From Nitrospirota bacterium (lineage in GTDB: Bacteria; Nitrospirota; Nitrospiria; JACQBW01), in the NCBI GenBank assembly GCA_016194305.1, contig JACQBW010000005.1, positions 1 through 64,000 on the forward strand: a stretch of DNA of 64,000 bases, read 5' to 3'. Shown in pieces: positions 8,567 to 46,162 of the stretch. The notes beneath the pieces were generated by a model. That model was given only the letters and a program-made list of their open reading frames with translations. It ran no database searches and was not told the DNA's origin. Position numbers and translations under genes: made by a program. Numbering within the stretch: position 1 is the stretch's first letter; every line of letters starts with the position of its first letter.

Positions 8567-11500
8567 CTATTCGTTTTTCTTCTCCAGCATTGAGACCGGC
8601 ACAGAAGCCGGGGGAGCCTTTGGCTCTTCAGCTGTTTTCATCCCCATCGACCCGGCACCCGTATTGATCGGAAGAAGACTCTTGTCTCCCACCGGCAGGA
8701 CTCTCAGGTAGCCCCACTGTCCGGCTTCCGCGTAAGGCATGCGGTGGTTTTGCCAGACGTAGGTGCCCGGAAGATGGTAAGGCCCTCCCGCCCCTTCCTT
8801 GATGAAGACATCCAGATTTTCCGACCCGCCAAACTCTTCCGAGCTCAACATATCGGCACCGACCATATTCGGCTTGAGCGGAAATTCATGACCCTCAAGA
8901 CTGAAGATTTGATTCTGTTCATCAAATGCTCCGAATACATGGATCCGAACCGGGTCTCCGGCATGGGCGGAAATAGTCGGCGTCACGGGATCTTTCTCGT
9001 CGGCAACGCAGGCGGAATAGAGATTCCCCAACTCACACCCCTTGTCCTGTCTCCAGCTCCAGGGTTCGATCCGGTAGTTGACACCCGTCAACCCGGCAAT
9101 ATGCTGAAGATACGGCATAAAGGAGGTTCCGATAATGTTGTCTTCTTCCTGGAAGAAGAGTGACGCGTCGCGATAGTCGGCACGGCTCGCATTCTCCGGG
9201 ACCGAACGATCGATGATCACATCGACATTCCATGCATTTTTCAAGCTGACATCTTCGCCGCTTTTCGGATCGCGATAGGTGGAACCTCGCGGACCGACGA
9301 TGATTCCGCCGAAGAGTCCGTCTCTCACGTTATTGAGAATATTGGCCCAGTCGTAAACCAGCGCGGCCGTTTCGCCATATTCAGCCGGTGCATAATACAT
9401 ATAGGTCTTATGCTCACCCGGGCCGATGGTCTGGTCTCCCGGATTCATGCCGACGTTGATCCCCTGCGAATCTTTTGGATCGAACGCCAGCATATCGGCA
9501 CTGAACGAAGCGCGGCTTGCCTTCATTTCGTTTTTCAAGTTGATCTTGATACAGTCACCGATGTTGACATGGAGCGTCAGCGGATTAGGCTGGCTGTCCA
9601 GCGCAACCCTGCTCTTGTCCCCTTCGAGCATGAAGATCTTCCCTTTGGGGTTGGCAACCTGCAGTTTCCGGTCGAAATCGACTTCGATCGTATCCGGCGC
9701 CTGATTATTGAATTTTAACGAACGATCCACCGCAATCACATTGAATGCCTTGACCGGCGCATCCGATGGACAGACCGACTTGGCTGACTGTGGTATTTCT
9801 TCATGTCCCGGAAGCGGCTTCAGATCGGCGGTTTTTTTGTCCAGCACCCGCATAATGCCCCAACTCCCTTCGGAGAGGTGAGACGCCCGGCCATTGTAAT
9901 GAAGGTAATCGCCTGCCATCTGCTGGGCTCCGCCCGCGGTGGTGACCAGGTCATACCGTTCGGCGATTCCCACATGATAGGCATTTCTCAGGTCGGAGAA
10001 TTGCGCATAACGTTCTGTTCTGAAGGCATGGCCTGCAATATGCCAGGTATGCGATTCGTTCATCATCACATGCATCAGGCGGAAGACGACCGTATCCCCC
10101 AGATAGGCTCTCAAGAGCGGGGTGTCCGGATCCTGATTGTGGTGCGCAAGACTCGAGAAGACGAGCTCCGATTTTGAATTGTCCGCAAGCCTTCGGGCCA
10201 GCGATTCCGCACGGAAGAACATTCCTCCGCCTGTCGTATGGGTTCCTCCGTTGATCGACGTGTTGGTGACCTTCAGAAGATCCTCAGGCATCACAAACGA
10301 GATGGTCTGTCCGGCGTCAATCGAGGCTTTGAGCGACTGTCCGGGAGGATTCCCTTCCGTAACCACCTGTGCGGTAAAGGGAACGGTGTCATGGAGATAC
10401 ACCACCATCTCTCTGAAACTGCCGCTCCGGTTGTAACCAATCGGTTCCGTGGAATGAATATCCGCAATCGGTCCGCTGCGGATCTCCTTGCCGGTTTTCG
10501 GATCGTGATAGGTGGCCCCTACCGGTTCCACAATCATGCCGCCGACCCCGCCGTGAGGCCAGGTGGTCGCGCCCAGCGCGTGGTCATGCCAAAAGACCGT
10601 CCCGAGGTCCGAATCGACCCAGTAGCGGTAGCGGACATATTCAGCCGAGGTAATCTCGCCTTTCTTATGGGCATGTTTCAGGGGTTCGGTAAAGGTGATC
10701 GTGTCGCCATTGATCGCCTTGATCCACCGGACTTCCGAAGAATTAAGCTCGTGCATGCCGATCATAATGTCGGTGCCGACATGGAACGCTGTTGCGCCAT
10801 CGCCCATTTTAATTTTAATGGAATCGGCTTTGGCTGCGGCATCCGAAGTCAACAGCGCGTTCATCGGCGCGGGCATCCCTTTATGTTCTTTTTTCCCGAT
10901 CATGGTGAACGGGCGGACCGACTGTTCATACGAAAATCCACTCATCACCCCGTCTGAGGCCTGATTGTCAAACTGGATGAAATGAGGGTGGATGTTGATC
11001 TTCGACATCTGGAAATTCGTATTATCGTTGTCGTTCCACTCACTTTTCAGAATCACATCAACGCAATCATAGACATTGGCGCGATAGACCAGCGGGCGAG
11101 CCAGGTCTGAATTTGCCCGGATTGCGGCTTCTTCCTCCTGAAGGACGTAAATCGTTCCATGCTGATCGACAATCGGTTTTTGACTTCCGATGGCGGTCTC
11201 CATGGTAATCGGCGTCTCGATAAAATGAATGGTGTATTGTTTACGCCCGGCCCCTTCGGGACAAAGGCTCCATTTTCCCTGTTCGCCCGGTTTTGCCGGA
11301 AGGGAGGTCTCCTGACCTAATGCCCCTTCACTTCCCGGATCGGTTGCCAGCGCGCCTGCGTTTTTGGCCACGTGGATCGGTTCCAGCCAGGGGGCAGGAC
11401 CATGGTGGCGGGCAAACGGAATTCGTTTTCCAAAGTGCGGTTTAAGATGGGGCCAGGAAAGTTTTCCGGTCTTCTCTTCGAATAAAAGAGGAGGTCGCTT

Positions 11501-30581: not shown

Positions 30582-31550
30582 TTATTTTAAAACGGAAGTC
30601 AGACTGTGATACATGGCGTCAAAATAGGAGATAATGTCTCCCCGCCTACTGGATGGATTCATTGATTCAGAAAGAATGACGGTATGCGCATGGAGTCTCA
30701 CCGCCAGGTCCGTTACCCGATCGAAATCGACAAAAGGAGGGCGCTCCGTAGCCGAAATGAGTACCAATGCGACGCGTTGATCTTTAAATCGCCGGGCCAA
30801 TTCTTTAAAACGCGCTTCATCGGGCCGATTCATCTCTTTGGGTTCAATGTAACTGACGATTTCCAACCCATGCCTTAGGGCCAGATAGTTCCAGCTTCGG
30901 TGGTAGGCAATGATCTTTTTTCCCCTGAAAGGGGCCATACTGTCGTCCCACTCCTTGATCTTGTTTTTTAACCGTGAGATCAATCCTTCTGCGGTCGAGT
31001 CATAGATTTTGGAATTGGCGGGGTCCACCCGGATAAAAGCATTCTTGATCTGTTCAATCATCGGTATCGTATTGGCGGGGTCCAGCCAATAGTGGTGATT
31101 CTTCACATTTTGATTTAAGCCGTTTTTTAACAGGAGTTCCTGAAATCGACTTCCGGCAAGTTCCTGATCCGGATAAGGCAAGAGAACCACCCCGTGAGAA
31201 AGGGTAATATACCCTCCCGCTCCCTGCTGGATTTTCTTGTTCTTGACCTCCTTAATCAAGGGACCTAACCAGCCTGCTTCAAGCTGTTCCCCATTGACAA
31301 AGAAGAGATCCGCCTGCTCAAGCCATGGAAGATGGCTGAGATCGGGTTCGACGCTATGAGGATCAATATCGGCGCCGACAATCCAGCGCGCGTCAATGAA
31401 CTCGCCCCCGACCTCTTTCGCCAAAAGAGCCTCATGTTCCGTGGTCGCCATGACTAAAATTTTACCTTCCGCCAGGCCTTGATAGCTCAAGACCGACAGA
31501 AAAAAAAGGGAAAATAACTTTACGACCAGACGATTTTTATCCTTCGCCAT
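30582..31550 (-). CDS. Metal ABC transporter substrate-binding protein 1 (cluster A-I, ZnuA/MntC type)
   Basis: This periplasmic protein of about 322 residues has a signal peptide (LFSLFFLSVLSYQGLAEG). Likely metal ligands are the His in G-A-D-I-D-P-H-S-V-E-P, the His in N-H-H-Y-W-L-D-P and the His in A-Y-H-R-S-W, all at the positions of the ZnuA/PsaA family. The family binds Zn(II), Mn(II) or Fe(II). The flexible His-rich loop of classical zinc proteins is absent. GGAG lies eight bases before the ATG at 31550. It is the last gene of a six-gene operon and one of three paralogues there; it is closer in sequence to the copy at 34407 than to that at 33375. Confidence 0.9.
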   Translation of the reverse strand: MAKDKNRLVVKLFSLFFLSVLSYQGLAEGKILVMATTEHEALLAKEVGGEFIDARWIVGADIDPHSVEPDLSHLPWLEQADLFFVNGEQLEAGWLGPLIKEVKNKKIQQGAGGYITLSHGVVLLPYPDQELAGSRFQELLLKNGLNQNVKNHHYWLDPANTIPMIEQIKNAFIRVDPANSKIYDSTAEGLISRLKNKIKEWDDSMAPFRGKKIIAYHRSWNYLALRHGLEIVSYIEPKEMNRPDEARFKELARRFKDQRVALVLISATERPPFVDFDRVTDLAVRLHAHTVILSESMNPSSRRGDIISYFDAMYHSLTSVLK

Positions 31551-31601
31551 CAATGGACTCCAAAACGATTTCTTTCATTATGTTTGTTTCTTGAAATTCG
31601 C

Positions 31602-32513
31602 CTATTTAATAAAATACCGCCTGAGAAGACCTGGCAGCAGGAAGAAGGAAGAAACGGTCAACATGGCTGATCCGGTTGGCAGAGAGTAGACAAAAGAAAA
31701 ATAAAACCCGAATAACGCTGACAAAAGGCCAAATATCGTGGCCAGAACAAAAACCCGCTTGATGTGGTCAGAAACCAAAAGGGCCGAAGTCGCCGGTATC
31801 ACCATAAATGAAAAGACCGGCAAGGCACCGATTGCACTGATGGATATTGAAATCGCCAGAGCAAATGTAAAGTAGAGCAGCTGATTGAACGCGACCGCTT
31901 TGATACCCATTGCCCTGGCGGACTCGGCATCGAAAGAGGAAAAGAGAAATTCCTTATGGAGCAAGGCATGAATCGCAAAGATCAACAATGAAGCCCCTGC
32001 CAAAAGAAACAGCTGTTTATCGGAAACAAAAACCGCGTTTCCGAATAAAATATTATCGATTTCATGAGTCTCCACAGCGACCTTGTCGAGGATCAGCAGG
32101 ACGAGACCCGCAGGCAGGACATAGCTGATCCCGACAATGGATTCCCGTGTAATCTTCCTTTCCCCGACCTGAATGGCCAACAGGAGCGCGGCGACCACTG
32201 CAAAAAGAAACGATACCAACGCAGGAACTGAAAGAAATCCGCTCTGTTCTCCCTCGGTAAAATGTACTCCGAAAAAGAGTCCCATGACGATGGAGATCGC
32301 AATTCCCAAGGCGGAAACTTGCGACAGTGCGGCACTGACGAAGACGATCCGCTTGAGAACAATGAACACCCCGAGAAATGAACTCACCAGAGCCGCCAGC
32401 GTACAGGCCAGAATGCCGCTATAAAGGAGCGGCATCGCATCGAGGAAGCTCATGCCATTGCTTTCGACGAGAAGAATTCTGGAGAGAAGCGGAATATGAC
32501 GAAGCCAGTCCAT
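31602..32513 (-). CDS. Metal ABC transporter permease (ZnuB/MntB type)
   Basis: This 303-residue integral membrane protein has about eight helices and the ABC-3 permease family features, with ISISAIGALPVFSFMVIPATSALL near the C terminus and FLGVFIVLKRIVFVSAALSQVSALGIA near the N terminus. Both fit the coupling region of ZnuB/MntB. It begins three bases after the ATPase stop codon and is the only permease in the operon, so it must serve all three binding proteins. Helix-internal His and Glu residues cannot distinguish zinc from manganese. Confidence 0.91.
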   Translation of the reverse strand: MDWLRHIPLLSRILLVESNGMSFLDAMPLLYSGILACTLAALVSSFLGVFIVLKRIVFVSAALSQVSALGIAISIVMGLFFGVHFTEGEQSGFLSVPALVSFLFAVVAALLLAIQVGERKITRESIVGISYVLPAGLVLLILDKVAVETHEIDNILFGNAVFVSDKQLFLLAGASLLIFAIHALLHKEFLFSSFDAESARAMGIKAVAFNQLLYFTFALAISISISAIGALPVFSFMVIPATSALLVSDHIKRVFVLATIFGLLSALFGFYFSFVYSLPTGSAMLTVSSFFLLPGLLRRYFIK

Positions 32514-32516
32514 TAG

Positions 32517-33353
32517 TTAATAAGGCCTCTTTTTAACCGGTGCGGGACGCTGCGGGTGGGGATGGGGGTGAGAGTGGTTTTGGTGGGCATGGCTATGTTT
32601 GACTTCGTGGCTATGTACCACGACATATTTTTGCCCATGAAGATTGTGGACATCGAGATCAATTTTATAGATCTTTTTCAGATTTTCATCTGTCAGTAGA
32701 CCTTCTGTGTCCCCTGATTCAAAAATTCCATCGCCATGGATAATAATCAAATTCTTGGCATAATTCGCAATCAGATTCAAAATATGGGTAATCATCAAGA
32801 TGGTAATATTCGATTCTTCATGCAGCGACATGATCAACTTCATGATATTACTTTCCCCTTCGATATCCATCGCATCGGTTGGCTCATCCAGAATGAGAAT
32901 GTTGGGGTCCGTTGCAAGCCCCCTGGCGATGAGAACCCGCTGTTTCTGCCCTCCCGAAAGCTCCCGGAACGGTTTTCTGGCCAACTGCGGAATGCCGACT
33001 TTTTCAAGAAGATCTGATGCAATCTGCCGGTCTTTTGGCCCTACCCTTTTGAAGAGTCCAATTTTGGAGTAGCGCCCCATCAGAACAACATCGAGCGCCG
33101 TCAGAGGGAAAATATCGTCTAACGTTCCCCGCTGGGGAACATAACCGACGATCAGATCCGGACTCTTCTCAATGGTTCCGTCGATCGGCGGCACCGATCC
33201 GAGAATGGTCTTGATAAATGTGGTCTTTCCGGCACCATTTGGACCGACAATTCCCCAGAAATCGCCATCCTTGATTTCCAACGAAATTCCGGACAGCAGA
33301 GACTTTTTGTGGTAGCCAATGGATAAATTTTTAAGGTGTATCTGCGCAGTCAT
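32517..33353 (-). CDS. Metal ABC transporter ATPase with His-rich C-terminal tail
   Basis: This 278-residue ATPase has Walker A GPNGAGKTT, signature LSGGQKQR, Walker B ILILDEPT and a switch His region typical of ZnuC/MntA. After the normal end of the family the chain continues about 40 residues into a His-rich tail with 11 His residues in the last 43, including HSHEVKHSHAHQNHSHPHPH. This resembles the metal-sequestering loops normally found in zinc-binding periplasmic proteins, here moved to the cytoplasmic ATPase. It could hold or sense incoming Zn(II), Ni(II) or Mn(II). It follows the second binding-protein gene by 21 bases. Confidence 0.92.
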   Translation of the reverse strand: MTAQIHLKNLSIGYHKKSLLSGISLEIKDGDFWGIVGPNGAGKTTFIKTILGSVPPIDGTIEKSPDLIVGYVPQRGTLDDIFPLTALDVVLMGRYSKIGLFKRVGPKDRQIASDLLEKVGIPQLARKPFRELSGGQKQRVLIARGLATDPNILILDEPTDAMDIEGESNIMKLIMSLHEESNITILMITHILNLIANYAKNLIIIHGDGIFESGDTEGLLTDENLKKIYKIDLDVHNLHGQKYVVVHSHEVKHSHAHQNHSHPHPHPQRPAPVKKRPY

Positions 33354-33374
33354 TGCTTAGTTCACTTTTAGGAA

Positions 33375-34334
33375 TCAACTATCTCCATGATTCGCGTTTT
33401 TAAATGCTTTTGAAAACTCTCCAAAAATCTTGTCAAAGAGAGCAAATACATCCGGTACGCCGAGCTCTTTACTGACCGAAGAGGGAACATTGACGATTTC
33501 CGCATGAGCCCGCTCTCCGATGGATCTTGCGATCTGGAGATTCTGGTAGTTTTCCATCAATATAATTTTGACATGGTCTTTCTTCATTTTTTCGACCAGC
33601 GCTGCCATGTAGGAGGCGCTAGGCGGGATCGTTTCATGCGGTTCGACATAATCTTCTATCTTCCAATGATAGCGTTCGGAAAGATAGGTCCAGCTCCGGT
33701 GATAACTGACTATTTTCTCTCCCCGGTAAGGGGCCATCATTTCATCCCATTCTTTAATCTTTTGAGTCAGTTTATCCGAAAATGTCTTCAAATTTGCCTG
33801 GTAAAAAGGCGCATTCCCGGGATCGGACTCTTCCAGAGCCTGTTCAATATTCTTTGCCATAATCAAATTGTTGGAAGGTTCCATCCAGTAATGATGATTC
33901 CCGATTTTCCCGGCGCTTAACAAGACCAGGAGACGGGCAAAAGGGGAATCCTTTAAGTCGTCCGCGTCATATTCGAGGAGAGGGACCTCTTTCGAGACGT
34001 CGACATAACCATGCTCGCCTTTCTGAATTCTTTGATTCCGGCAGAGGATCAGTGCCTGGGGAAGCCAGTTCAATTCCAGTTCCTGGCCATTGACCAGCAA
34101 AAGATCGGCTTTGTTTAGCAGGGGAACAAAGGCCGGGGTCGATGGAATTTCATGCGGATTCTGATAACCCTTTCCCAGAAAACGAGACTCGATCTTGTCG
34201 CCGCCAATCTGATGAGCCAGGTCTGCCCAATGCTCAAAGGTCGCCAGAACAAGCATTTTGGCCTGAACTTCCCGGGCAAGACTCGTCAGTAAAATAATGA
34301 ATAAAAATAGGTTTAAACTGCGTTTTTTCATCAT
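33375..34334 (-). CDS. Metal ABC transporter substrate-binding protein 2
   Basis: The 319-residue protein has a signal peptide (LNLFLFIILLTSLAREVQA) and the family's metal site: the His in Y-Q-N-P-H-E-I-P, N-H-H-Y-W-M-E-P and S-Y-H-R-S-W, then D-Y-V-E-P-H-E-T-I-P. Compared with its two paralogues it has W-M-E-P in place of W-L-D-P, and FEHWADLAHQIGG in place of TEHEALLAKE.GG, so its specificity may differ. It lies between the third binding protein and the ATPase on the same strand with short gaps. No typical zinc-loop is present. Confidence 0.9.
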   Translation of the reverse strand: MMKKRSLNLFLFIILLTSLAREVQAKMLVLATFEHWADLAHQIGGDKIESRFLGKGYQNPHEIPSTPAFVPLLNKADLLLVNGQELELNWLPQALILCRNQRIQKGEHGYVDVSKEVPLLEYDADDLKDSPFARLLVLLSAGKIGNHHYWMEPSNNLIMAKNIEQALEESDPGNAPFYQANLKTFSDKLTQKIKEWDEMMAPYRGEKIVSYHRSWTYLSERYHWKIEDYVEPHETIPPSASYMAALVEKMKKDHVKIILMENYQNLQIARSIGERAHAEIVNVPSSVSKELGVPDVFALFDKIFGEFSKAFKNANHGDS

Positions 34335-34406
34335 TTTAGGTTAAATTTAATCATGCCCGATTAGTGAACAAAGGTCAACTCTAATAGTAGGGGCTTGCGT
34401 CGGACA

Positions 34407-35378
34407 TTATTTAAGCGCAGAAGCCAATTCGTCATATATCCGGTCAAAAAAGGCGACGATATCGGTTTGCTTTCCGGACTCACTCAAACTGTCCGGGAGC
34501 ACTACAATTTTAGAATGGATTTTTAATGCCAGATTTTTCACCGCCTCGATATCGACATAGGGAGGTTTCTGATTCTCGGACATCAAGATTGCCGAAACCC
34601 CTTTATTTTGACTCCGGTTAGCCAGATTGTTCAAATCCCCCTCGGCCGGCCGGGTCATCTCTCTCGGTTCCACGTATCCGACAATGGACAGACCATGGCG
34701 ATGGGCGAGATAAGTCCAGTCCCGATGGTAGGAGATGATTTTTTTCCCTTTAAAAGGAACCATTTTGGCATCCCATTCCTTGATTTTTTCTTCCAAGCGG
34801 TTAATCAATCCCTGGGCGTTGGACTCATAGGTCTTTGAATTGGAGGGATCCACGCTGATCAGACCTTTCTTAATATTGTTGATCATCGGAATCTCATTGG
34901 CCGGATCAAGCCAGTAATGGTGGTTACCCACCGTCTTCCCCAGCCCCATGCCGAGGATGACGGTATAGAATTTAGTCTGTCTCAACTCTTCCGCAGCATA
35001 AGGGAGTATCGTTGCCTCTTCCGAGAGATTGATATAGTTGTCCTGATCCCTCATAATTTTCCCATTCCGGGTATCGACCAAAAGAAATCCCAGCCAGCCG
35101 ACCTCAATGTCCTGCCCGTTCACCAACAGAAGATCCGCCTTGTTTAAGATCGGAACCATTGTTTTGTTCGGCTCCACAAAATGTGGATCTTCTTCTGCGC
35201 TAACCAGTGACCGTACGTCGATCAGGCCGCCACCGATTTCTTTCGCCAGGAGAGCTTCGTGTTCCGTCGTTCCGACCACAAACGGTTTAGCTTCTGAAGA
35301 AATATTCATTCCCGCTATTGAAATGGCGATGACACCGAGTGTCAGCCCTTTTTTGATTAAACCAGTGATATTAAACAT
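34407..35378 (-). CDS. Metal ABC transporter substrate-binding protein 3
   Basis: This 323-residue exported protein is preceded by an excellent ribosome-binding site (AAGGAGAT). The mature part opens VVGTTEHEALLAKEIGGGLIDVRSL and keeps the presumed ligands E-D-P-H-F-V-E-P, N-H-H-Y-W-L-D-P and S-Y-H-R-D-W, with G-Y-V-E-P-R-E-M-T-R-P after it. It is clearly paralogous to the first binding protein (same TEHEALLAKE and REM/KEM.RP pattern), which suggests a duplication within the operon. It follows the porin gene by 38 bases. The metal cannot be told from sequence. Confidence 0.9.
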   Translation of the reverse strand: MFNITGLIKKGLTLGVIAISIAGMNISSEAKPFVVGTTEHEALLAKEIGGGLIDVRSLVSAEEDPHFVEPNKTMVPILNKADLLLVNGQDIEVGWLGFLLVDTRNGKIMRDQDNYINLSEEATILPYAAEELRQTKFYTVILGMGLGKTVGNHHYWLDPANEIPMINNIKKGLISVDPSNSKTYESNAQGLINRLEEKIKEWDAKMVPFKGKKIISYHRDWTYLAHRHGLSIVGYVEPREMTRPAEGDLNNLANRSQNKGVSAILMSENQKPPYVDIEAVKNLALKIHSKIVVLPDSLSESGKQTDIVAFFDRIYDELASALK

Positions 35379-35416: not shown

Positions 35417-36742
35417 TTAGAATAAGGTCAGAAACTTACCGACTCCGGGGGTTACCGTACCCAATCCCATATTTAACTGAACGATCAAAATATCGCTATC
35501 CTGTTGTAAACCGCTCGCATTCAAATGGTCATACTCAAAGGTCCATCGGGCTACGGGACTGACATAATACCGATACGCCGCAGCATATCGAACACGGGAA
35601 TCTTCCTGCTTTCCAATGATCTGGGAAGAAGCGGGATCCACATAATCCTGACTGGACGGGGCGACATAATCTAACCGAGCCGCCAATTCATGTCGGTAAG
35701 CATAACGATAACTTGCTTCAGTATACGCACCCCATAGGGTATCGCTTTTGCCAGGAAGTGCGGTCGAAGTGAGCATCCCATAATTGTTGAGATCCTTTTG
35801 ATTGATGATCGGGTGATCCCGCTTGGCGAGGATACCTTCAATTGTCCATCGGACATTCGGGAATATCGGCGAAGTAGGCGGTTTCCAAAAGAGCGTCGAT
35901 TCCAGGTCGATTAACGTGGTCTTATCGTCCGGATTGCATTCCGTACAGCCTGATGCTGCAATCATGTCTGCATTCTTATTATTTCCAAATGCCCCGGAAA
36001 TTCCAGGTTCCCAGGTCATCGCATCGTTAATCCCGATCACCGATGAGATCTTCGGAATTATGACAAATTGATTGGTATCCGTACCCGCGTCATCCGCTGC
36101 ATTATTTCTTGTGTCGATCGGTCTCACAAAGGTGGAAAAACGATTCACATTTCCAAAATCACCCTGCAATTGAGCATTCTGAACGTCCAATGAAAATTCT
36201 ACGAAAGTCTCGATGGGCGGCTGCCAGGTTAATTCCATTCCCAGCTTGTGAATTCCGTCTTCCCCCAGCATGATATTGGTAATGATCGGAGGGGTGGCAA
36301 AATTCCATTCATGGTCGTGAACCGGATTGATCTTTCCAATATTCGATCTGAAAATACCCGCTTTTAACGCCAGATTAAAAGGCATTTTATGGAAATAAAC
36401 AAAGGACTCTTCAATGGAGGAACCGGATTCCGCTCCGGTGATAAAGAGAGCGAATTTCGCGGGAAATTGGAATAGTTCCGCGGAAAAAGAAAGATCCGCG
36501 CTCTTTAACGTAAATCCGCGCGGAATGGAGCCGCCCACCACATCCTGGTTATATCCTTCCGCATAGTGAGTCATATTGGCATACATCAAATTGATGTTGA
36601 GAGACATATCAATCAGGCCATACTGGCTCAAAGTCACCCCTTTGACATGGGCTTCTGCCGGAGGGGCCCAAGCAAGAACCGGCATGAGGGAAATAGTCCC
36701 TAACCCCACATAAAGAAAAAATTTTCTAATTGAAAACATCAT
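35417..36742 (-). CDS. Outer-membrane porin leading the metal-uptake operon
   Basis: This 441-residue protein has a signal peptide (GTISLMPVLAWAPPAEA) and then alternating beta strands ending in an aromatic residue (KFLTLF), as for an outer-membrane barrel. It contains a motif G-x-F-R-S-N-I-G-K-I-N-P-V-H-D-H-E-W-N-F with a following GEDGIHKLGMEL, like those in barrels found beside zinc transporters. The His cluster could guide metal entry. With the three binding proteins, ATPase and permease downstream (gap 38 bases) it gives an outer-to-inner membrane uptake route. Its start follows a leader with two terminator-like hairpins. Confidence 0.8.
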   Translation of the reverse strand: MMFSIRKFFLYVGLGTISLMPVLAWAPPAEAHVKGVTLSQYGLIDMSLNINLMYANMTHYAEGYNQDVVGGSIPRGFTLKSADLSFSAELFQFPAKFALFITGAESGSSIEESFVYFHKMPFNLALKAGIFRSNIGKINPVHDHEWNFATPPIITNIMLGEDGIHKLGMELTWQPPIETFVEFSLDVQNAQLQGDFGNVNRFSTFVRPIDTRNNAADDAGTDTNQFVIIPKISSVIGINDAMTWEPGISGAFGNNKNADMIAASGCTECNPDDKTTLIDLESTLFWKPPTSPIFPNVRWTIEGILAKRDHPIINQKDLNNYGMLTSTALPGKSDTLWGAYTEASYRYAYRHELAARLDYVAPSSQDYVDPASSQIIGKQEDSRVRYAAAYRYYVSPVARWTFEYDHLNASGLQQDSDILIVQLNMGLGTVTPGVGKFLTLF

Positions 36743-37060: not shown

Positions 37061-39022
37061 TTATCGCGTCAGAGAAGAGTCTTTTTTAATCACCTTAAAA
37101 TCGATTTCACTGTGACAGATTTCACATCGCTGGCCCAATTCTCCGTCATGAATATCATCTCTCCGATGACAGCTGACACACATTCTGGAGGTTTTTGCCA
37201 CAAACATGGTCTGGGTATGGCATTCGGGGCATTTCACATTTCTATGTTTATCAAGAAGCGGATACCCGGTCTCTTTGAAATGATTAAAATCTTCTCTTTC
37301 CCAGGTCTTTGCCGTATGGCAGGCTTCGCATTTCTTCCCGAATAACCCTTTGTGCTCGTCATCTTTCTTGTGACAATCGATACAGAGCCTGGGCGCATCT
37401 TTAAAGAGCTGGGTTTTGTGGCAAAGCGCGCATTTGGTCTCGATATGTTTCCCTTCGAGAGGGAAATTGGTCTTTTTGTGATTGAATTTGTCGATCTCTT
37501 TCCAGGAATTTTCCGTATGGCATCGCGCACAGGATTCACCCAGCTTTCCCCGATGCTTATCATCTTTTTGGTGGCAAGAAATACAATCGATGGAAATCTT
37601 ATATTTCTCATTCGCATGGCATTTACTGCAGAGTACCGGAATATGCTTCCCAACCAAGGGATATTTTGTCGTGGAATGGTCAAATCTAATCTCCTTCCAC
37701 TTGGGCACAATCTGATGACAGCGATCGCATTTCGGCCCCAATTTTTCTTTATGGTAATCATCTTTCTTATGGCAGTCGTAACAGAGTTTCGGTGTCTGTT
37801 TAAGCTGGGGAGTCTGGTGGCATTTGATACATTCGACCTTTTGATGGGTTCCGACTAATTTGTACTCAAATTTATTGTGGTCAAAGTTTTGTTCCTTCCA
37901 CGTTTTTGCGGTATGGCAGGTCTCACAATCCTTGCCGAGGTTTCCTTTATGTTTATCCTCTTTTAAATGGCAACCGATACAGGTCTTGGGCGCTTCCTTG
38001 ACTTTTTTAAGAGGAAGATGGCATTTTTCGCATTTCGTATCGATATGTTTGCCTTCAAGCTTAAAGTCTGTCTTGTTATGGTCGAATTTAATTTCTTTCC
38101 ATTCCCGGGCGGTATGGCAGGTTTCACAATTCTTGCCCAATGATCCTTTGTGCTTGTCCTCTTTCTGATGACAGCTGAAACAGGCCTTGGGGGTCTCTTT
38201 AAATTTCTTCTGGGGTTGATGGCATTTTTCGCATTTGGCTTCTTCGTGCTTACCCACGAGCGGAAAATCGGTTTTGGAATGGTCGAATTTGATCTCTTTC
38301 CATTCCCGAGCTGTATGGCAACTTTCACATACTTTTCCCAATGACCCTTTATGTTTGTCTTCTTTTTCATGACATGAAAAACACTCTTTGGGCGTTTTGG
38401 TAAAATTTTGAGCGGTATGGCATTTTTCACAGACGACAGGACCCTGTTTTCCGGTGACATGTCGCCCGATCAGGGGAAAATGGGTCGTTGCGTGATCAAA
38501 TTTCGCCTCTTTCCAGCTTTTCGCGTTGTGGCACTCCTTGCAGTTCTTTCCGAGCGCCTCTTTATGGTAGTCATCCTTAATATGACAGGGAGAGCACTCT
38601 TTCTGTGTTTCACGGTATTTCGGCTTTTTGTGGCATTTATCGCAGTCTGCCTTTTGATGTTTCCCTTCGAGATCAAATTCCGTTTTACGATGATCAAACT
38701 CATCTTTTTTCAGATCGACCAGTTCAAAGACTCTCCCTTTGTGGTCGCTGTGGCAGATTTCGCATTTGGTGGCATCGATTTTTCCATGAAATCCTCTCTT
38801 CTGGTCGACATCTCGTTTTGCCTCTTTGTGGCAGACGAGGCATTTGTCAAAAAAGAATTTCTGGCCGATGGTGTGGCATTCCAGACAGTTTCCTTCAATC
38901 TTCTGATGGAGAGAGGCAACTTCGCCCGGCATGACCCCTTTGAGGAGGTCAAATGAGTGGACTTTGGACGGAGTCAATAAGAAAAGAACGAGAATGGATA
39001 GAAATAGAAGCTGTTTCTTCAA
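37061..39022 (-). CDS. 27-haem c-type cytochrome built from three-haem repeats
   Basis: This exported 653-residue protein (signal peptide MKKQLLFLSILVLFLLTPS) contains 27 CXXCH motifs; summing motifs and gaps reproduces the full length, so the count is firm. From the middle on, three-haem modules of 66-67 residues repeat: a WKE.KFDH.KT.F.L.GKH stretch, CXXCH, 11-12 residues, CXXCH, then KEDKHKG.LGK and CXXCH. The many extra His residues (FDH, GKH, DKH) can serve as distal ligands for bis-His haems. Lysine richness implies a basic, soluble periplasmic or fibre-forming protein. The start seems to be TTG. It follows the di-haem b protein gene by 45 bases, and I infer that it carries electrons across the periplasm. 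Confidence 0.92.
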   Translation of the reverse strand: MKKQLLFLSILVLFLLTPSKVHSFDLLKGVMPGEVASLHQKIEGNCLECHTIGQKFFFDKCLVCHKEAKRDVDQKRGFHGKIDATKCEICHSDHKGRVFELVDLKKDEFDHRKTEFDLEGKHQKADCDKCHKKPKYRETQKECSPCHIKDDYHKEALGKNCKECHNAKSWKEAKFDHATTHFPLIGRHVTGKQGPVVCEKCHTAQNFTKTPKECFSCHEKEDKHKGSLGKVCESCHTAREWKEIKFDHSKTDFPLVGKHEEAKCEKCHQPQKKFKETPKACFSCHQKEDKHKGSLGKNCETCHTAREWKEIKFDHNKTDFKLEGKHIDTKCEKCHLPLKKVKEAPKTCIGCHLKEDKHKGNLGKDCETCHTAKTWKEQNFDHNKFEYKLVGTHQKVECIKCHQTPQLKQTPKLCYDCHKKDDYHKEKLGPKCDRCHQIVPKWKEIRFDHSTTKYPLVGKHIPVLCSKCHANEKYKISIDCISCHQKDDKHRGKLGESCARCHTENSWKEIDKFNHKKTNFPLEGKHIETKCALCHKTQLFKDAPRLCIDCHKKDDEHKGLFGKKCEACHTAKTWEREDFNHFKETGYPLLDKHRNVKCPECHTQTMFVAKTSRMCVSCHRRDDIHDGELGQRCEICHSEIDFKVIKKDSSLTR

Positions 39023-39067: not shown

Positions 39068-39976
39068 CTAGAATATCATAACTGCAGCAATATGGATAAT
39101 AAAAGTGACAATCAGAATCCATATAAAAGGAACATGGAGTTTGTGCCAGATCGAGAAGAGCTTCGCCGCCGACTCGAGAACGGTCACATGTTTTTCCAGA
39201 GAGATGAGTTTAATGACCATCTCTTCAAGCGATCCTTCCAAAACATGGTACTTTCTCTCCTTTAAATATTTAATCACCTCTTTTTTGACCTTTTTTTCCA
39301 GTAAATCGATCTTGATCATCAGGTAAAGAGATTTTAAAAGTCCTGCAGAAGACTTGCTCTCTCTTAAACCAAAGAACCGGTTGATACTGTCCAAAGTTTT
39401 CTGGGAATCGGAGAACTGGGTTTTTATCTTTTCACTGAGCTGGCTGATCTCTTCGTTCATTTCCCTTAACGTCGCTCTTTCTCCAGAAAGGGAGAATTGG
39501 AAATGTCGGTAAATATAACGCCCCACAATGCCGCTCCCCACCACGATCATCATCGAATAGTAGGCAATGGCCGAATTGGTCGCGGTGACCGTAAAACCGC
39601 TGTGGTATACGATCAACATCGGACCAAAAAGACAGAATAAGATATGAATGTCGAGCCAATCCTTGATTTTTCCAAAATGACTTAATCTTCTGACCTTTTT
39701 CCGGATCACATAAAAAGAGGCCCCGACAAACATCATGGCTGAACCAATAATTCCGATCAGCCGGGAAAAGTCATCGCCGACTTTGTAGGGAAATATCGCC
39801 ATATAAATGGGAACCCCGACGGCCGCAGAGAGTCCCAGTATTAACATGATCCATTTGGCCCATTTCATCGGATTGAACTCTTTGGAAACAGCATCCGCTC
39901 TATTTTTTGGAGGAGCCGAGTTTTCCTTGGCTGGCATATTCTGATACGCTTTCGGCTGGGCGATATTAATCTGCAT
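39068..39976 (-). CDS. Membrane protein with two H-X13-H helices (predicted di-haem cytochrome b)
   Basis: From the ATG at 39976 (AAAGGA eight bases upstream) the protein has 302 residues and five hydrophobic segments. Two of them, counting from this start, carry His pairs with the spacing of bc1-type cytochrome b: H111 and H125 in DIHILFCLFGPMLIVYHSGF, and H281 and H295 in KLHVPFIWILIVTFIIH. In such proteins each helix supplies one ligand to each of two stacked haems. A charged coiled-coil-like segment of about 100 residues lies between these helices. I recognise no named family. Position between the barrel and the 27-haem gene suggests a quinone:cytochrome c link. Haem binding is inference. 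Confidence 0.7.
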   Translation of the reverse strand: MQINIAQPKAYQNMPAKENSAPPKNRADAVSKEFNPMKWAKWIMLILGLSAAVGVPIYMAIFPYKVGDDFSRLIGIIGSAMMFVGASFYVIRKKVRRLSHFGKIKDWLDIHILFCLFGPMLIVYHSGFTVTATNSAIAYYSMMIVVGSGIVGRYIYRHFQFSLSGERATLREMNEEISQLSEKIKTQFSDSQKTLDSINRFFGLRESKSSAGLLKSLYLMIKIDLLEKKVKKEVIKYLKERKYHVLEGSLEEMVIKLISLEKHVTVLESAAKLFSIWHKLHVPFIWILIVTFIIHIAAVMIF

Positions 39977-40030: not shown

Positions 40031-42127
40031 TTAAAACGGAATTGAGACGCTGGTGCGGGTCTGGATGGTATTGTTCCAACCCGAGGAGAAGCTATTGTCT
40101 TCCATCAAATAATCCCCTTCCAGACTCGCTTCCACACCATTCTTTAACGAATATCTCATCACAAACCCCGGAACATACCGGGTTAAGGAGCTCCCCGCTG
40201 ACAGATTGAAAACGGTGTTTTCATATCGAAATCTAAGCCCCCCCTGGAAACCACTGGGCCAAATTCGAAGCATATTGGCGACGATGGAAGTATTCGTGGA
40301 GTCCGTCCCGGGAGAATAGAGAAAAAGGGTAGAAATAATCTCGTTCTGATTGAAATAATTCCTCTCCAAAATAAACGCCGAATAGCGGTCTGCAATCTTC
40401 TCCGAATCGACCATGGGAAAAGTGATCATATGGCTTGCGAGATCGGTTGGATTATAAAATGTCTTCCCATACCTGAAATCGACTCGCCAGATAAGGGAGA
40501 GGTCGATCGAAAGTCCAAGACTGTAATCGAGCGTCGTTTGCGTCGCAGCCAGGGCGCTGGCCATAATTTCCTCCCGCGACTTGGTTGCGATCAGATCATC
40601 CATCGTCGTAATAGGAGGAGTCGCGAGGAAATTTGCCGGGTCTGCAAGCGCCGTGTTGAAATCCAGAAAAGGATTTCTCCGGTACTCCACCAGACCGGAA
40701 TAGTGAAAGATGGACCGGGTATAGTCGAAATTAACCATGGCATCATTTATTTTATTGAAATCGATATCCCGATCGAGGAGCGTCGTCAAATTAAAGTTTT
40801 CATACATCCAGAATGCATTGAGACCAACGGCTCTTCGGGTTGAAAATTCTTGAAAATACTCCTGAGTAAAGTAGATCTTACCCGTGATATGATAATAGTC
40901 GACCACCGATAAATAGCTTTCATAGAATTTTCGCTCGGATTCAATCGCGAGCGTATCGGTCGCAAAAATATCGACTGGAGCTCCGACGCTGTTCGTCCAG
41001 GTCACGGAAGAAACCGGAAGACCAAAAGACAATCCGTCAAACCGGTTAAATAACGTACTTCCGGAGCTCGGCTGTCTTCCCAAACGGAAATTCGAAAACC
41101 AGCCGACATTATTCCCTTCAAGATATAACTTATTGAGTCGGGTCCGGTCATTTCGATTGACCAAAAAGTCGTTTGCGTTCATCCCGGAAAAGTTGAAACG
41201 GAGATCGGGACCGGATCCCTTCCGCCATCTGAAATCCAGAAATTCGCTCAGGCGGCTCTGGGTATTCGAAGACATCCCTTCAGGAACACCTGCGAGGGCA
41301 TAATCGTAAAGATATTCGGTAATGAGTGAGCCGGAGATTCTGTCCGGACCTGTTCGAACCGGAACCCGCTTTGCCGGGGTTTCTTTCTTCTCCGCGCCTT
41401 CCTTCCCTTTAAGATCCCCGGTTGCCGTACCCGATTTTGCCAGGAGCTGGCTCTTTTCTTCCGCATCTTTTTTATGAAGTGAAGCGGGGAAACTTTTCAA
41501 AAAGCGCTTGAAACTTTCCAGGGCTAGAGCCGGCTTCTCCGTCTTTTCGCTGATCAAAGCAAGATACCAATACGCTTCTTCCACAGATGACGTACCATTG
41601 CCGCTTTGAATCAGGCGATAAAAGAGCGATTTCGCCTGATTATACTCTTCTTGCTGAAAGAGCTGGATTGCTTTGGCCAGTTCATCAGATTGATCTTTAG
41701 GGGATGGATGTGCCTGGACGGAACTGGCGGCGCCAGAAGTGACCGAACTAGATGGCAACTTCTGATCAAGAAGGACTAATTTGCCCTCCGCCGCTTTCTT
41801 GTGAGAACTGCCGGGATAACTTTTTACAAATAATCTGATTTTCTGCCGAATGATATTCGGTTTGTCTGATTTCTCGCTGATCAGAACCAGGTACCACTGC
41901 GCATCTTCAATTTCCGGAGAACCAATTCGCGTTTCAATCAGATGCAAAAACAGTTTTTTGGCTTTGACGAAGTCCGATTGCTCATAAAAACGAATCGCGT
42001 TAGCCATTTCATCCGAATGGCCCCTTAGATTCAGGAACGACGGTCCCCATGAACAGCCGCTCAGTAAAAAAAAAACGACGGAAAAAATCAAACCTTTGTT
42101 AATCAATTCATACCCTTTCTCAACCAT
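40031..42127 (-). CDS. Outer-membrane lipoprotein: TPR domain plus beta barrel
   Basis: This 698-residue protein has a lipobox (FLLSGC, Cys 25), then two similar tetratricopeptide-like blocks (ANAIRFYEQSDFVKAKKLFLHLIE and KAIQLFQQEEYNQAKSLFYRLIQ, each followed by an EDAQWYLVLISEKS-type helix), a Lys/Pro-rich linker, and from about residue 255 a long run of amphipathic beta strands ending in a Phe (TRTSVSIPF). It has no CXXCH motif. I infer the outer-membrane pore of a porin-cytochrome conduit, with the TPR part on the periplasmic side docking cytochromes. It starts three bases after the 11-haem gene and 25 bases before the b-type gene region, so it is part of the same operon. Confidence 0.75.
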   Translation of the reverse strand: MVEKGYELINKGLIFSVVFFLLSGCSWGPSFLNLRGHSDEMANAIRFYEQSDFVKAKKLFLHLIETRIGSPEIEDAQWYLVLISEKSDKPNIIRQKIRLFVKSYPGSSHKKAAEGKLVLLDQKLPSSSVTSGAASSVQAHPSPKDQSDELAKAIQLFQQEEYNQAKSLFYRLIQSGNGTSSVEEAYWYLALISEKTEKPALALESFKRFLKSFPASLHKKDAEEKSQLLAKSGTATGDLKGKEGAEKKETPAKRVPVRTGPDRISGSLITEYLYDYALAGVPEGMSSNTQSRLSEFLDFRWRKGSGPDLRFNFSGMNANDFLVNRNDRTRLNKLYLEGNNVGWFSNFRLGRQPSSGSTLFNRFDGLSFGLPVSSVTWTNSVGAPVDIFATDTLAIESERKFYESYLSVVDYYHITGKIYFTQEYFQEFSTRRAVGLNAFWMYENFNLTTLLDRDIDFNKINDAMVNFDYTRSIFHYSGLVEYRRNPFLDFNTALADPANFLATPPITTMDDLIATKSREEIMASALAATQTTLDYSLGLSIDLSLIWRVDFRYGKTFYNPTDLASHMITFPMVDSEKIADRYSAFILERNYFNQNEIISTLFLYSPGTDSTNTSIVANMLRIWPSGFQGGLRFRYENTVFNLSAGSSLTRYVPGFVMRYSLKNGVEASLEGDYLMEDNSFSSGWNNTIQTRTSVSIPF

Positions 42128-42130
42128 ACT

Positions 42131-43096
42131 TTATTTAGAAAAAGTGGAGGTACTATGGCAATTTCCACAAACCAGGCCGACGTTATGATTCGATTTATAG
42201 ACCGCACCCATCGGATTTCCCGCTTTGTGGCAGTTCTGGCAGGTCGATGAATAATTAAAAATCGCCGAATGGACCATTTTATAGCTGGAAAAACCACCCG
42301 ATTTGGTACTGGTGTGACATGAGTTACAATCGGTGATGATGTTCGAAAGAGGATTGTGAATCAGGTTTCCTGCCGTGGTTGGGGGTACCATTGCCCCACT
42401 GGAGTTTCCGGAAAAATGACAACTTTTACATTGCTGACCGGCAAGATTGGTATGGTCAAATGCCGCACCCGCAAAGGAGCTCGTGCTCTTGTGACATTGA
42501 CTGCAATCCTGACTTCCTAAATTGCTATGGGTGGCATTCGTGGGCGGAGGCATTCCCGGACCTCCTATCTTATGACAGGAGGAACAGAGCTGGCCCATCA
42601 GATTTGCATGGTTGAATCCCGCTGGCACCCAAGCCGTGGTTCGATGGCAGGTGTCACATTGGCTCGTTGTCGGGACATGATTGGAAGGTTTCCCCGTGGC
42701 TTTCTGGCCATTGTGACAGTTGGAACACTGGCCTGCTGTCGAGGGGTCGTGCGTAAAAGTAGAAGGGATCCAGGCGTTTTGGCTATGGCAGAACATGCAG
42801 CTCTGATTGGTCATGAGATGGCTAGCCGGTTTACCATAGGAGATCTGTCCATTATGACATTCCTCACAGGTGCGGGGGGTCCCTTTATATCTTCCTCCGG
42901 AATGGCATTGCTTGCAGTCCAGAATCCGGTGTGCCCCTTGAAGCTGAAAAGAGGTGGAGTCATGGTTAAAGTTGGGACGAGGCGTCGTTTGAGCCTGGGC
43001 AGATATTGGGAAATAAAAGAACAATATTCCTGTTGCCAGGCAGATCCATACTTTGGAAAGATAACTTCGACGATTAACCTTTGAATCCGTAGTCAT
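42131..43096 (-). CDS. 11-haem c-type cytochrome, paralogue of the 33-haem protein
   Basis: I chose the ATG at 43096, preceded by GGAGGAG, giving 321 residues with a signal peptide (LATGILFFYFPISAQA). There are 11 CXXCH motifs. The N-terminal part (PRPNFNHDST.FQL.GAHR.L followed by six haems) and the C-terminal part (GAM.PP.TAGNLIHNPLSNI.. and three haems, ending CGNCHSTSTF) match the 33-haem protein closely. The low-complexity, Ser/Thr/Gly-rich spacers and few basic residues suggest a surface-exposed chain-like cytochrome. It leads an operon with the barrel, the b-type protein and the 27-haem gene, behind a sigma-54-like promoter. Confidence 0.92.
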   Translation of the reverse strand: MTTDSKVNRRSYLSKVWICLATGILFFYFPISAQAQTTPRPNFNHDSTSFQLQGAHRILDCKQCHSGGRYKGTPRTCEECHNGQISYGKPASHLMTNQSCMFCHSQNAWIPSTFTHDPSTAGQCSNCHNGQKATGKPSNHVPTTSQCDTCHRTTAWVPAGFNHANLMGQLCSSCHKIGGPGMPPPTNATHSNLGSQDCSQCHKSTSSFAGAAFDHTNLAGQQCKSCHFSGNSSGAMVPPTTAGNLIHNPLSNIITDCNSCHTSTKSGGFSSYKMVHSAIFNYSSTCQNCHKAGNPMGAVYKSNHNVGLVCGNCHSTSTFSK

Positions 43097-43177
43097 TTGA
43101 ACTCCTCCTGTAAGGTCTATCGAGGTCTCAGTCTGACCTGGTCTGAAAATGATAAAACAAGTCACCTGAATTCAAAT

Positions 43178-43492: not shown

Positions 43493-46162
43493 TTATTTGT
43501 CAAAGGTGGAAGTGCTATGACAATTTCCACAAATGACACCGACGTTATGGTTAGATTTAAATTCGGCACCCATTGGATTTCCCGATTTGTGGCAATTCTG
43601 ACAGGTTGTCGCATAATTCAAGATCGCCGTATGAACCATTCTATAGCTGGAAAAACCACCCGATTGCGTGCTGGTATGACAGGAATTACAATCGGTAATA
43701 ATATTTGAAAGCGGATTGTGAATCAGGTTTCCTGCCGTCATCGGGGGAGCCATCGCCCCGGTCGTATTTCCCGCAAAATGACAGGTCTTGCAAGTCGTTA
43801 CACCGGTATGATTGAAGGAGGCCCCCGAAAATGTGGTAAAACCGGTATGACATTGGCTGCAATCACTATTGGCCGCCGCATAGGGATGCGGATTCGGTGT
43901 TGAAACCGCTCCTACCGTATTCCCGGCAATATGACAGGTCGCGCAAGAAGTCGGAGGAGAAATACCCGTGTGATTCATCGTCACGGTGGTAAAGGTCGTC
44001 GTACTTGAATGGCAACCATTGCAATCCTTCCCGTTGAGATTACTGTGCACGACATCATTTTTCGGCGCCATCCCGGACCCTCCGGTCTTGTGACAGGAAT
44101 TACAAAGTTGGCCGGTCAGGGTAGAATGATTAAAGATTCCGTTCGCAAAAGTTGCTGTGCCTGCATGGCAGAGATTGCATTCCTGGGTCGTCACCATATG
44201 ATTCGACGGTTTGGCCACCGCTCCGACCGCATTGCCGACAGAGTGACAGGTGGAACAGACCGCAACAATTCCGGTGTGATTCATGGTCGCCGTGGTAAAG
44301 GTCGTCGTACTCGCGTGACAGCTCTTGCAGTCCTGGCCTGCCAGATTGCTGTGCACAACATCATTTTTAGGCGCCATCCCGGATCCGCCGGTCTTGTGAC
44401 AGGAATTGCAAAGCTGACCGGTCAAGGTGGAGTGATTAAAGACCCCGTTCGCAAAAGTGGTTGTCCCCGCATGGCAGAGATTACATTCCTGAGTCGTCGC
44501 CATATGATTCGAGGACTTGGCCACCGCGCCAACCGAATTGCCGACATAATGACAGGTGGAACAGGCCGCAACTACTCCGGCGTGATTCATAGTCGCCGTG
44601 GTAAAAGTGGTGGTGCTGGCGTGGCAACTGCTGCAATCCTGTCCGCCCAGATTACTATGGACCACATCGCTCTTCGGCGCCATCCCGGAGCCGCCCGATT
44701 TGTGACAGGAGGAACAGAGCTGACCAGTTAAACTTGAGTGATTAAAAATGCCGTTGGCAAACGTAGACGTTCCGGCATGGCAGAGATTACATTCCTGAGT
44801 CGTCGTCATATGATTCGAGGACTTAGCCACCGCACCGACCGAATTGCCGACATAGTGACACGTGGAACAGGCCGCAACAATTCCAGCGTGGTTCATCGTC
44901 GATCCGGTAAAAGTGACCGTTCCGGTATGGCAGCTGCTGCAATCCTGTCCGCCCAGATTACTATGAACGACATCGCTCTTCGGCGCCATCCCGGAGCCGC
45001 CCGATTTATGACAGGAAGAGCAAAGTTGTCCGGTCAGACCCGAGTGATTAAAAATGCCGTTGGCAAACGTGGAGGTTCCGGCATGGCAGAGATTGCATTC
45101 CTGAGTCGTCACCATATGATTTGACGGCTTGACCATTGCTCCCACGGCATTAGCTGCTATGTGACAAGTCGAACAGGGGATGACGATGCCAGCATGGTTC
45201 ATGGTCGATCCGGTAAAAGTGACCGTTCCGGAATGACAACTTTTGCAATCCTGACCGCCCAGATTACTATGAACAACATCGCTCTTCGGCGCCATCCCGG
45301 TGCCGCCTGATTTGTGACAGGAGGAACAGAGCTGGCCGGTCAGACCTGAGTGATTAAAAATGCCGTTGGCAAAAGTGGAGGTTCCGGCATGGCAGGAACT
45401 GCATTCCTGTGTCGTCGCCATATGATTCGACGGCTTGACCATCGCTCCCACAGTATTCCCTGTCGCGTGACAGGTCGAACAAGGTGCGACGATACCGGTA
45501 TGATTCATGGTTAAAGTGGTAAAGGTCGTGGTGCTGGCGTGACAGCTTTTACAATCCTGTCCGCCCAGATTACTATGTACGGCATCTGACGTCGGCGCCA
45601 TGCCGGTGCCCCCCGCCTTATGACAGGAAGAACAGAGCTGATTTCCCAGATTGGCATGATTAAACCCTGCAGGGATCCAGGCAGAAGTCCGGTGGCAGGT
45701 ATCGCATTGGCTGTTTGTGCTGATATGATTTGCGGACTTTCCAGTTGCCTTTTGACCATTGTGACAGGTTGAACATTGACCCGCCGAAGAGGCATCGTGT
45801 GTAAAGGTCGTCGGGAGCCAGCTATTTTGACTATGGCAGAGCGTGCAGGCCTGAGTGGTCATGATATGGTCAGCCGGTTTGCCATAGGTGATCTGGCCAT
45901 TGTGGCAATCCGAACAATTTCGAGGCGTCCCTTTATACCTTCCGGCAAGATGGCATTTATTACATTCGAGCCCCCGATGCGCTCCTAACAGTTGAAACGT
46001 CGTCGAATCATGGTTGAAATTGGGCCGAGGGATATTTTGCACCACTTTGGTGCTATTTCCAATTTCCGTGCTGCTGGCAATAGATGAGGTTGAGAATAGA
46101 GCACTGTTGATCAATAGTAATTGAAAGAGGAAAAAAACCAATGTTTTTAAATGTTTAGTCAT
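43493..46162 (-). CDS. 33-haem c-type cytochrome with tandem four-haem repeats
   Basis: This exported 889-residue protein has 33 CXXCH motifs; motifs plus gaps add up exactly to the length. Residues 254-661 are four exact-length copies of a 102-residue unit with four haems, residues 662-767 a slightly longer fifth copy, and residues 153-253 a related partial one. In each unit the spacers read AGTSTFANGIFNHSGLTGQL, K.GG.GMAPK.DVVHSNL.GQD, then TFT..TMNH.GIV and VGA..K.SNHM.TTQE. Each spacer carries a His that could be a distal ligand. The ends match the 11-haem protein. The likely job is long-range electron transfer at the cell surface, perhaps as a filament. A sigma-54-like promoter and two palindromes precede it. 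Confidence 0.93.
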   Translation of the reverse strand: MTKHLKTLVFFLFQLLLINSALFSTSSIASSTEIGNSTKVVQNIPRPNFNHDSTTFQLLGAHRGLECNKCHLAGRYKGTPRNCSDCHNGQITYGKPADHIMTTQACTLCHSQNSWLPTTFTHDASSAGQCSTCHNGQKATGKSANHISTNSQCDTCHRTSAWIPAGFNHANLGNQLCSSCHKAGGTGMAPTSDAVHSNLGGQDCKSCHASTTTFTTLTMNHTGIVAPCSTCHATGNTVGAMVKPSNHMATTQECSSCHAGTSTFANGIFNHSGLTGQLCSSCHKSGGTGMAPKSDVVHSNLGGQDCKSCHSGTVTFTGSTMNHAGIVIPCSTCHIAANAVGAMVKPSNHMVTTQECNLCHAGTSTFANGIFNHSGLTGQLCSSCHKSGGSGMAPKSDVVHSNLGGQDCSSCHTGTVTFTGSTMNHAGIVAACSTCHYVGNSVGAVAKSSNHMTTTQECNLCHAGTSTFANGIFNHSSLTGQLCSSCHKSGGSGMAPKSDVVHSNLGGQDCSSCHASTTTFTTATMNHAGVVAACSTCHYVGNSVGAVAKSSNHMATTQECNLCHAGTTTFANGVFNHSTLTGQLCNSCHKTGGSGMAPKNDVVHSNLAGQDCKSCHASTTTFTTATMNHTGIVAVCSTCHSVGNAVGAVAKPSNHMVTTQECNLCHAGTATFANGIFNHSTLTGQLCNSCHKTGGSGMAPKNDVVHSNLNGKDCNGCHSSTTTFTTVTMNHTGISPPTSCATCHIAGNTVGAVSTPNPHPYAAANSDCSQCHTGFTTFSGASFNHTGVTTCKTCHFAGNTTGAMAPPMTAGNLIHNPLSNIITDCNSCHTSTQSGGFSSYRMVHTAILNYATTCQNCHKSGNPMGAEFKSNHNVGVICGNCHSTSTFDK
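43874..45403. repeat. Tandem repeat array, 306-bp period, inside the 33-haem gene
   Basis: Five consecutive DNA units of about 306 bp encode the four-haem modules. For example the TGGCAGAGATT(G/A)CATTCCTG segment recurs near 44164, 44470, 44776 and 45082. The high nucleotide identity points to recent amplification, so copy number may vary between cells and may be misassembled from short reads. Confidence 0.9.

Follow-up and report, generated by a model that had tools for sequence, protein, structure and literature searches.

Organization of the gene cluster

Within the window, i.e. the whole 64,000-nucleotide stretch of DNA that was analysed, a gene for a probable membrane-bound cytochrome b (b gene, b protein) is embedded among genes for multihaem c-type cytochromes. 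The order of transcription, on the same strand, is 33-haem cytochrome, 11-haem cytochrome, 698-aa porin-like protein, b gene and 27-haem cytochrome, and according to the coordinates the b gene is flanked by gaps of approximately 50–60 bases each. The features are given below in this order, PCC3 being the type of extracellular electron conduit with which the cluster was compared.

43496..46162, minus strand: c-type cytochrome with 33 haems in 889 aa (26.9 aa per haem), probably the extracellular cytochrome of PCC3
42134..43165, minus strand: 11-haem c-type cytochrome, 344 aa, 31.3 aa per haem, related to the 33-haem protein
40034..42127, minus strand: porin-like protein, 698 aa, with Cys25 in SGC, a TPR-like N-terminal part and a strand-rich C-terminal part ending in Phe
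39071..39976, minus strand: b protein, an inner-membrane protein of PCC3 type with 302 aa and a probable di-haem cytochrome b (conservation; motifs as in He et al. 2017)
37064..39022, minus strand: c-type cytochrome with 27 haems in 653 aa (24.2 aa per haem), probably the periplasmic wire of PCC3

The reading frame of the b gene runs from position 39976 to 39071 plus stop codon on the minus strand, starts with ATG and encodes 302 amino acids; an AGAAAGGA sequence lies a short way 5′ of the ATG. On the plus strand, the same interval contains several in-frame stop codons. The adjoining 653-aa gene product contains 27 CxxCH motifs. It is built of three-haem repeats of about 67 aa and the 33-haem cytochrome of four-haem repeats of about 102 aa each; the 11-haem protein resembles the ends of the latter and looks like a shortened copy of it. 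Judged by likeness in size and composition, an extracellular or periplasmic placing of the multihaem cytochromes is probable.

No Pfam match to a porin family was obtained for the 698-aa protein. In its structure model the TPR-like helical part was predicted well; the strand-rich part had a pLDDT below 50, and its strands could not be counted. Cys25 in the lipoprotein-like SGC was kept in all four aligned relatives. The TPR-like part resembles BamD/YbgF models below their cut-offs, and its combination with a lipoprotein-like SGC is unusual for a conduit porin.

The wider flanks comprise housekeeping genes on one side and, on the other, a gene for a secreted-looking 441-aa protein (35420–36742, minus strand) followed by a metal ABC-uptake set (30585–35378, minus strand). 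The 441-aa protein had no Pfam or NCBIfam match and no homologue in the neighbourhoods fetched. Besides one ATPase and one permease, the uptake set encodes three distinct ZnuA-like binding proteins, and all zinc and manganese models scored below their cut-offs on it.

Four invariant histidines in the b protein

The b protein contains histidines at positions 100, 111, 125, 158, 244, 263, 278, 281 and 295, from which the following candidates were selected.

Minus strand: haem ligand candidates of the 302-aa protein, H111, H125, H281 and H295

Residue counting and hydropathy analysis confirmed the first-pass annotation in that exactly 13 residues lie inside each of the pairs H111/H125 and H281/H295, both within hydrophobic segments. 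This spacing alone is weak evidence, since 1.9% of 20,000 shuffles of the same protein held at least two H-x13-H pairs; a chance origin of the spacing was rejected on conservation and not on the spacing itself. In an alignment with 30 relatives, all 30 had His at each of these four positions, and at most 20 of them had His at any of the other five. A wider set was assembled from 97 open-frame hits at E ≤ 1e-5, which gave 53 distinct sequences after removal of duplicates; the four histidines together with S148 and G149 were invariant in all 53, and W277 was kept in 52 and W107 in 48 of them. Four named homologues encoded on plasmids of Bacteroidota, Alpha- and Gammaproteobacteria likewise have the four histidines (28-row alignment). 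The conservation on which the earlier proposal had been made to depend was thus found. It renders the assignment of the b protein as a haem b protein well supported, and a bis-histidine di-haem-b core in the membrane protein is likely.

Predicted membrane topology and the hydrophilic insert

Five hydrophobic segments were recognised in the 302-aa protein, the helices being derived from prediction only. The segments relevant to haem binding and the insert between them are as follows.

39596..39658, minus strand: predicted helix 3, residues 107–127, with W107-x3-H111-x13-H125 (hydropathy, conservation)
39512..39580, minus strand: predicted helix 4, residues 133–155, with S148-G149-x2-G152 (hydropathy, conservation)
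39152..39511, minus strand: hydrophilic insert, residues 156–275, mostly helical, predicted cytoplasmic (alignment, low-confidence model)
39071..39151, minus strand: predicted helix 5, residues 276–302, with W277-x3-H281-x13-H295 (hydropathy, conservation)

The long insertion that had been noted between the histidine-bearing helices is real. It spans about residues 156–275 between helices 4 and 5 (approximately 120 residues with 22 K/R and 17 D/E), is mostly helical in a low-confidence model, and is absent from compact relatives of about 195–205 aa. The numbers of K plus R amount to 6 in the N-terminus, 1 in loop 1–2, 7 in loop 2–3, 0 in loop 3–4 and 22 in the insert. From these numbers, the positive-inside rule predicts a cytoplasmic location for both the N-terminus and the insert, with helices 3 and 5 running parallel. 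In this orientation H111 and H281 would lie near the cytoplasmic and H125 and H295 near the periplasmic side, so that the predicted topology places the members of each would-be ligand pair at the same depth and, as far as it goes, agrees with the earlier proposal. In an ideal helix, the two histidines within each helix are 40 degrees apart, and none of the four deviates by more than about 55 degrees from the conserved face of the helix that bears it. The AlphaFold model of the b protein, based on a four-row alignment, was too poor for haems to be placed (mean pLDDT 53, pTM 0.34), and a fold search of the PDB with it gave no match at E ≤ 0.001; for this reason, the pairing of histidines across the helices is deduced from the sequence only.

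Distribution of the family and its pairing with multihaem cytochromes

Members of the b-protein family were found in 44 of the 116 relatives searched (own genome counted), in 94 of 395 Nitrospirota genomes sampled, and in one plasmid from Bacteroidota. Three of the relatives are named; these are Nitrospirae MAGs from groundwater, and their b proteins share 47–51% identity with that of the window. In a tree of 28 rows, the window protein and eight further long Nitrospirota forms fell together (95/89). Nitrospirota and Proteobacteria were mixed in a clade of the FAD/2Fe-2S type (100/100), a further clade comprised the cNMP type (100/98), and the deepest forks were weak.

The first-pass annotation had tied the b protein to the 27-haem cytochrome, and this tie extends to the equivalents of the latter in relatives: in 25 of 26 loci, the b gene is directly followed on the same strand by one that encodes at least three CxxCH motifs, the exception being L046. 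The count comprises loci in which the b gene was called and H-x13-H was present, including L031 and L033, though contig ends cut their cytochromes (7 and 11 haems). The window itself, the duplicates L035, L038 and L045 (of L031–L033) and L062_10, which is devoid of H-x13-H, were left out, and L040, L041, L052, L055, L057 and L063 are not represented, as the simple gene caller did not recover their b gene whole.

The form of the b protein varies with that of the downstream gene product. Long forms precede cytochromes whose haem number, 24 or 27, is divisible by three in each case (12 complete cases plus the window). Forms of 247 and 254 aa precede 7-haem cytochromes, and compact forms of 194–204 aa without the insert precede 5-haem cytochromes in six loci; in L064 a compact form precedes a 3-haem cytochrome. 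The pairs of compact b protein and 5-haem cytochrome in Nitrospira-like genomes (L053, L054, L056, L058, L059 and L060) are without a porin, and a function for such pairs was not found in the literature searched. In L033, the b gene (8619–9311, identical to L045:875–1567) has an in-frame gap of about 33 residues, which begins at the end of helix 4 and reaches into the insert, yet the four histidines are kept; the gap represents either a real deletion or an assembly fault.

Similarity to the inner-membrane protein of PCC3

The b protein had been proposed to represent a new family. This was not borne out, as the same signature is described for the PCC3 inner-membrane protein by He et al. 2017 (PMC5566968). 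According to the description given there, this protein has about 300 residues and five helices, of which helix 4 carries SGxxG and helices 3 and 5 each carry Wx3Hx13H; the authors saw a likeness to cytochrome b as well as to the ferric reductase domain, and suggested that the protein holds two haems b and communicates with the quinone pool. Shorter proteins with the same histidine motifs are reported to adjoin other multihaem cytochromes. PCC3 itself is described as a porin with a predicted β-barrel and two multihaem cytochromes with 22–39 aa per haem, one extracellular and one periplasmic, and the examples presented are from Alpha-, Beta- and Gammaproteobacteria (PMC5566968).

The window protein, with 302 aa and five hydrophobic segments by helix prediction, corresponds to this description in length and in carrying W107/H111/H125, S148-G149-x2-G152 and W277/H281/H295. 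Its gene lies beside those for a porin-like protein and multihaem cytochromes, and the 27, 33 and 11 haems of the latter are packed at 24.2, 26.9 and 31.3 aa per haem, respectively. The 27 haems also fall within the values of 21, 24 and 27 given for periplasmic PCC3 subunits of Gallionellaceae (PMC10734462). The window differs from the published proteobacterial examples in its Nitrospirota host, in the lipoprotein-like Cys and TPR-like part of the porin-like protein, and in the extra 11-haem cytochrome in the operon. Motifs and gene content, rather than a sequence alignment with the published proteins, lead us to assign the window gene with good confidence as the putative inner-membrane subunit of a PCC3-type extracellular electron conduit.

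In the open-access literature searched, only He et al. 2017 was found to deal with HX13H cytochromes, and no report besides it was found on PCC3 in Nitrospirota or Nitrospira. The passages on PCC3 in later papers still handle it as predicted (PMC10734462, PMC8788666, PMC12442390). In Sideroxydans lithotrophicus ES-1, both PCC3 clusters were reported to be downregulated on Fe(II), so that an Fe(II)-oxidising role is doubtful in this strain (PMC8788666). For Sideroxydans CL21, the inner-membrane gene of one PCC3 copy is described to rise with iron-oxidising activity (PMC12442390).

Partner genes, known haem b families and alternative assignments

In several relatives, the b gene is accompanied by genes for putative cytoplasmic redox proteins. 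In L061 and L066, the gene immediately preceding it codes for FAD, NAD and 2Fe-2S domains; for L044 and L046, the corresponding domains are Pyr_redox, cNMP-binding and 4Fe-4S, and the b domain of L047 forms a fusion with cNMP and 4Fe-4S domains. Among the plasmid homologues, those of Methylophaga and Acetobacter are preceded by a gene for a 2Fe-2S protein and followed by a 7-haem gene, that of Sphingobium is preceded by a gene for a cNMP protein and followed by a 10-haem gene, and that of Emticicia (Bacteroidota) has 23- and 40-haem genes nearby. The domain scan covered few neighbours of the long-form relatives; within the window operon, no flavin or Fe-S gene was found.

With the window b protein, no Pfam or NCBIfam model passed its cut-off. 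The NCBIfam matches of the protein and its relatives revealed nothing meaningful, and the top matches of profile and single-sequence searches of the PDB lay within the insert and look like chance coiled-coil similarity. PF01292 (prokaryotic cytochrome b561/Ni-hydrogenase cytochrome b) hit the last helix of the window protein at E = 0.033 with 14.4 bits versus a cut-off of 30.1, and matched 17 of 24 family members at E ≤ 1 (best 5.2e-5). DUF4405 (PF14358), for which one protein is described to bind haem b (PMC11334425), matched 7 of the 24 members (best 3.3e-6); one relative, L058, passed its cut-off (28.0 versus 26.7 bits), and no match was listed up to E = 10 for the window protein. The similarity of family members to both HMMs is thus weak. 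As to the haem c motifs of NapC/NrfH, the b protein contains no CxxCH.

The first-pass annotation had considered the arrangement of the histidines to be that of cytochrome b in bc1 complexes and the protein to be a quinol:cytochrome c oxidoreductase. The first part holds for the geometry only, as two H-x13-H pairs are located on helices that are predicted to be parallel. In bc1 cytochrome b, the histidines are on helices 2 and 4, whereas the window protein has five helices with histidines on helices 3 and 5, a core that is also found in compact relatives of about 195 aa. Cytochrome_B (PF00033) is not among the families listed for 24 members (25 of 26 families), the genome has its bc1-type cytochrome b at two other places (Cytochrome_B loci), and membership in the bc1 family was rejected on these two grounds. 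A scan of 20 neighbouring genes also revealed neither a Rieske nor a cytochrome c1 gene. Taken together, an electron-bifurcating, bc1-like enzyme operating a Q cycle is very unlikely. A relay resembling ferric reductases and NOX, in which electrons flow outward from a cytoplasmic flavoprotein or Fe-S protein whose gene lies elsewhere and which may dock on the helical insert, appears less remote but still unlikely. It would agree with the reductase-type and cNMP-type proteins encoded beside relatives, with the similar annotations in the named plasmids, and with the layout of helices 3 and 5, which carry two histidine pairs as in the ferric reductase/NOX transmembrane domain (PF01794), with a bis-His di-haem proposed (PMC5566968). 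The window operon differs in lacking the flavin/NAD gene, and Ferric_reduct gave no match for the window protein and matched 2 of the 24 members only (E 0.25–0.26). A role without haem, in anchoring the 27-haem cytochrome to the membrane or in its assembly, would explain the strict pairing of the two genes; however, the four histidines at haem-b spacing were invariant in all distinct relatives examined, and some of these are weakly similar to cytochrome b561 and the haem-binding DUF4405, which renders this function highly improbable.

Proposed path and direction of electron transfer

For the PCC3-type subunit favoured here, one haem b would be held by H111 and H281 near the cytoplasmic side and a second by H125 and H295 near the periplasmic side of the membrane. 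Via these haems, electrons would hop between a quinone in the membrane and the 27-haem cytochrome in the periplasm; the latter would be linked through the porin to the 33-haem cytochrome outside. As the window operon is devoid of a flavin or Fe-S gene, a quinone is the simplest inner partner of the b protein, and we infer that it accepts electrons from the b protein or, as quinol, is oxidised by it. Uptake of electrons from an extracellular donor into the quinone pool is slightly preferred over export, mainly because uptake is the model proposed for PCC3; export would be only somewhat less probable. The genome (95% complete) contains one cytochrome bd-like match above and one NapC-like match just above the respective cut-off, for COX1 only a fragment below the cut-off, and no NrfD. 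This respiratory gene content makes quinone-linked respiration plausible, whichever the direction of flow.

For the way in which PCC3 is joined to the inner membrane, a proposal has existed since 2017. The four conserved histidines and the distinct cytoplasmic partners give clear, testable predictions on haem content and electron source, and the PCC3-type clusters in Nitrospirota together with the similar cluster in Bacteroidota extend this kind of conduit beyond the Proteobacteria. The family itself was already known; the present analysis adds its occurrence in Nitrospirota and in a Bacteroidota plasmid, the pairing with a downstream cytochrome, and the relatives with NAD(P)H/FAD/2Fe-2S or Pyr_redox/cNMP/4Fe-4S partners. 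Tentatively, the five-helix, four-histidine core may be regarded as a general plug-in relay of the inner membrane, for which quinone, an NAD(P)H/FAD/2Fe-2S reductase or a Pyr_redox/cNMP/4Fe-4S protein could serve as inner partner and cytochromes of 3 to 27 or more haems as periplasmic partners. The insert of the long forms might then replace the reductase as a docking, dimerisation or gating element.

In L044, the cNMP-type b gene is followed by a gene for a 10-haem cytochrome with a predicted N-terminal FHA domain (10471–12234), a domain composition that suggests a cytoplasmic signalling part combined with periplasmic haems.
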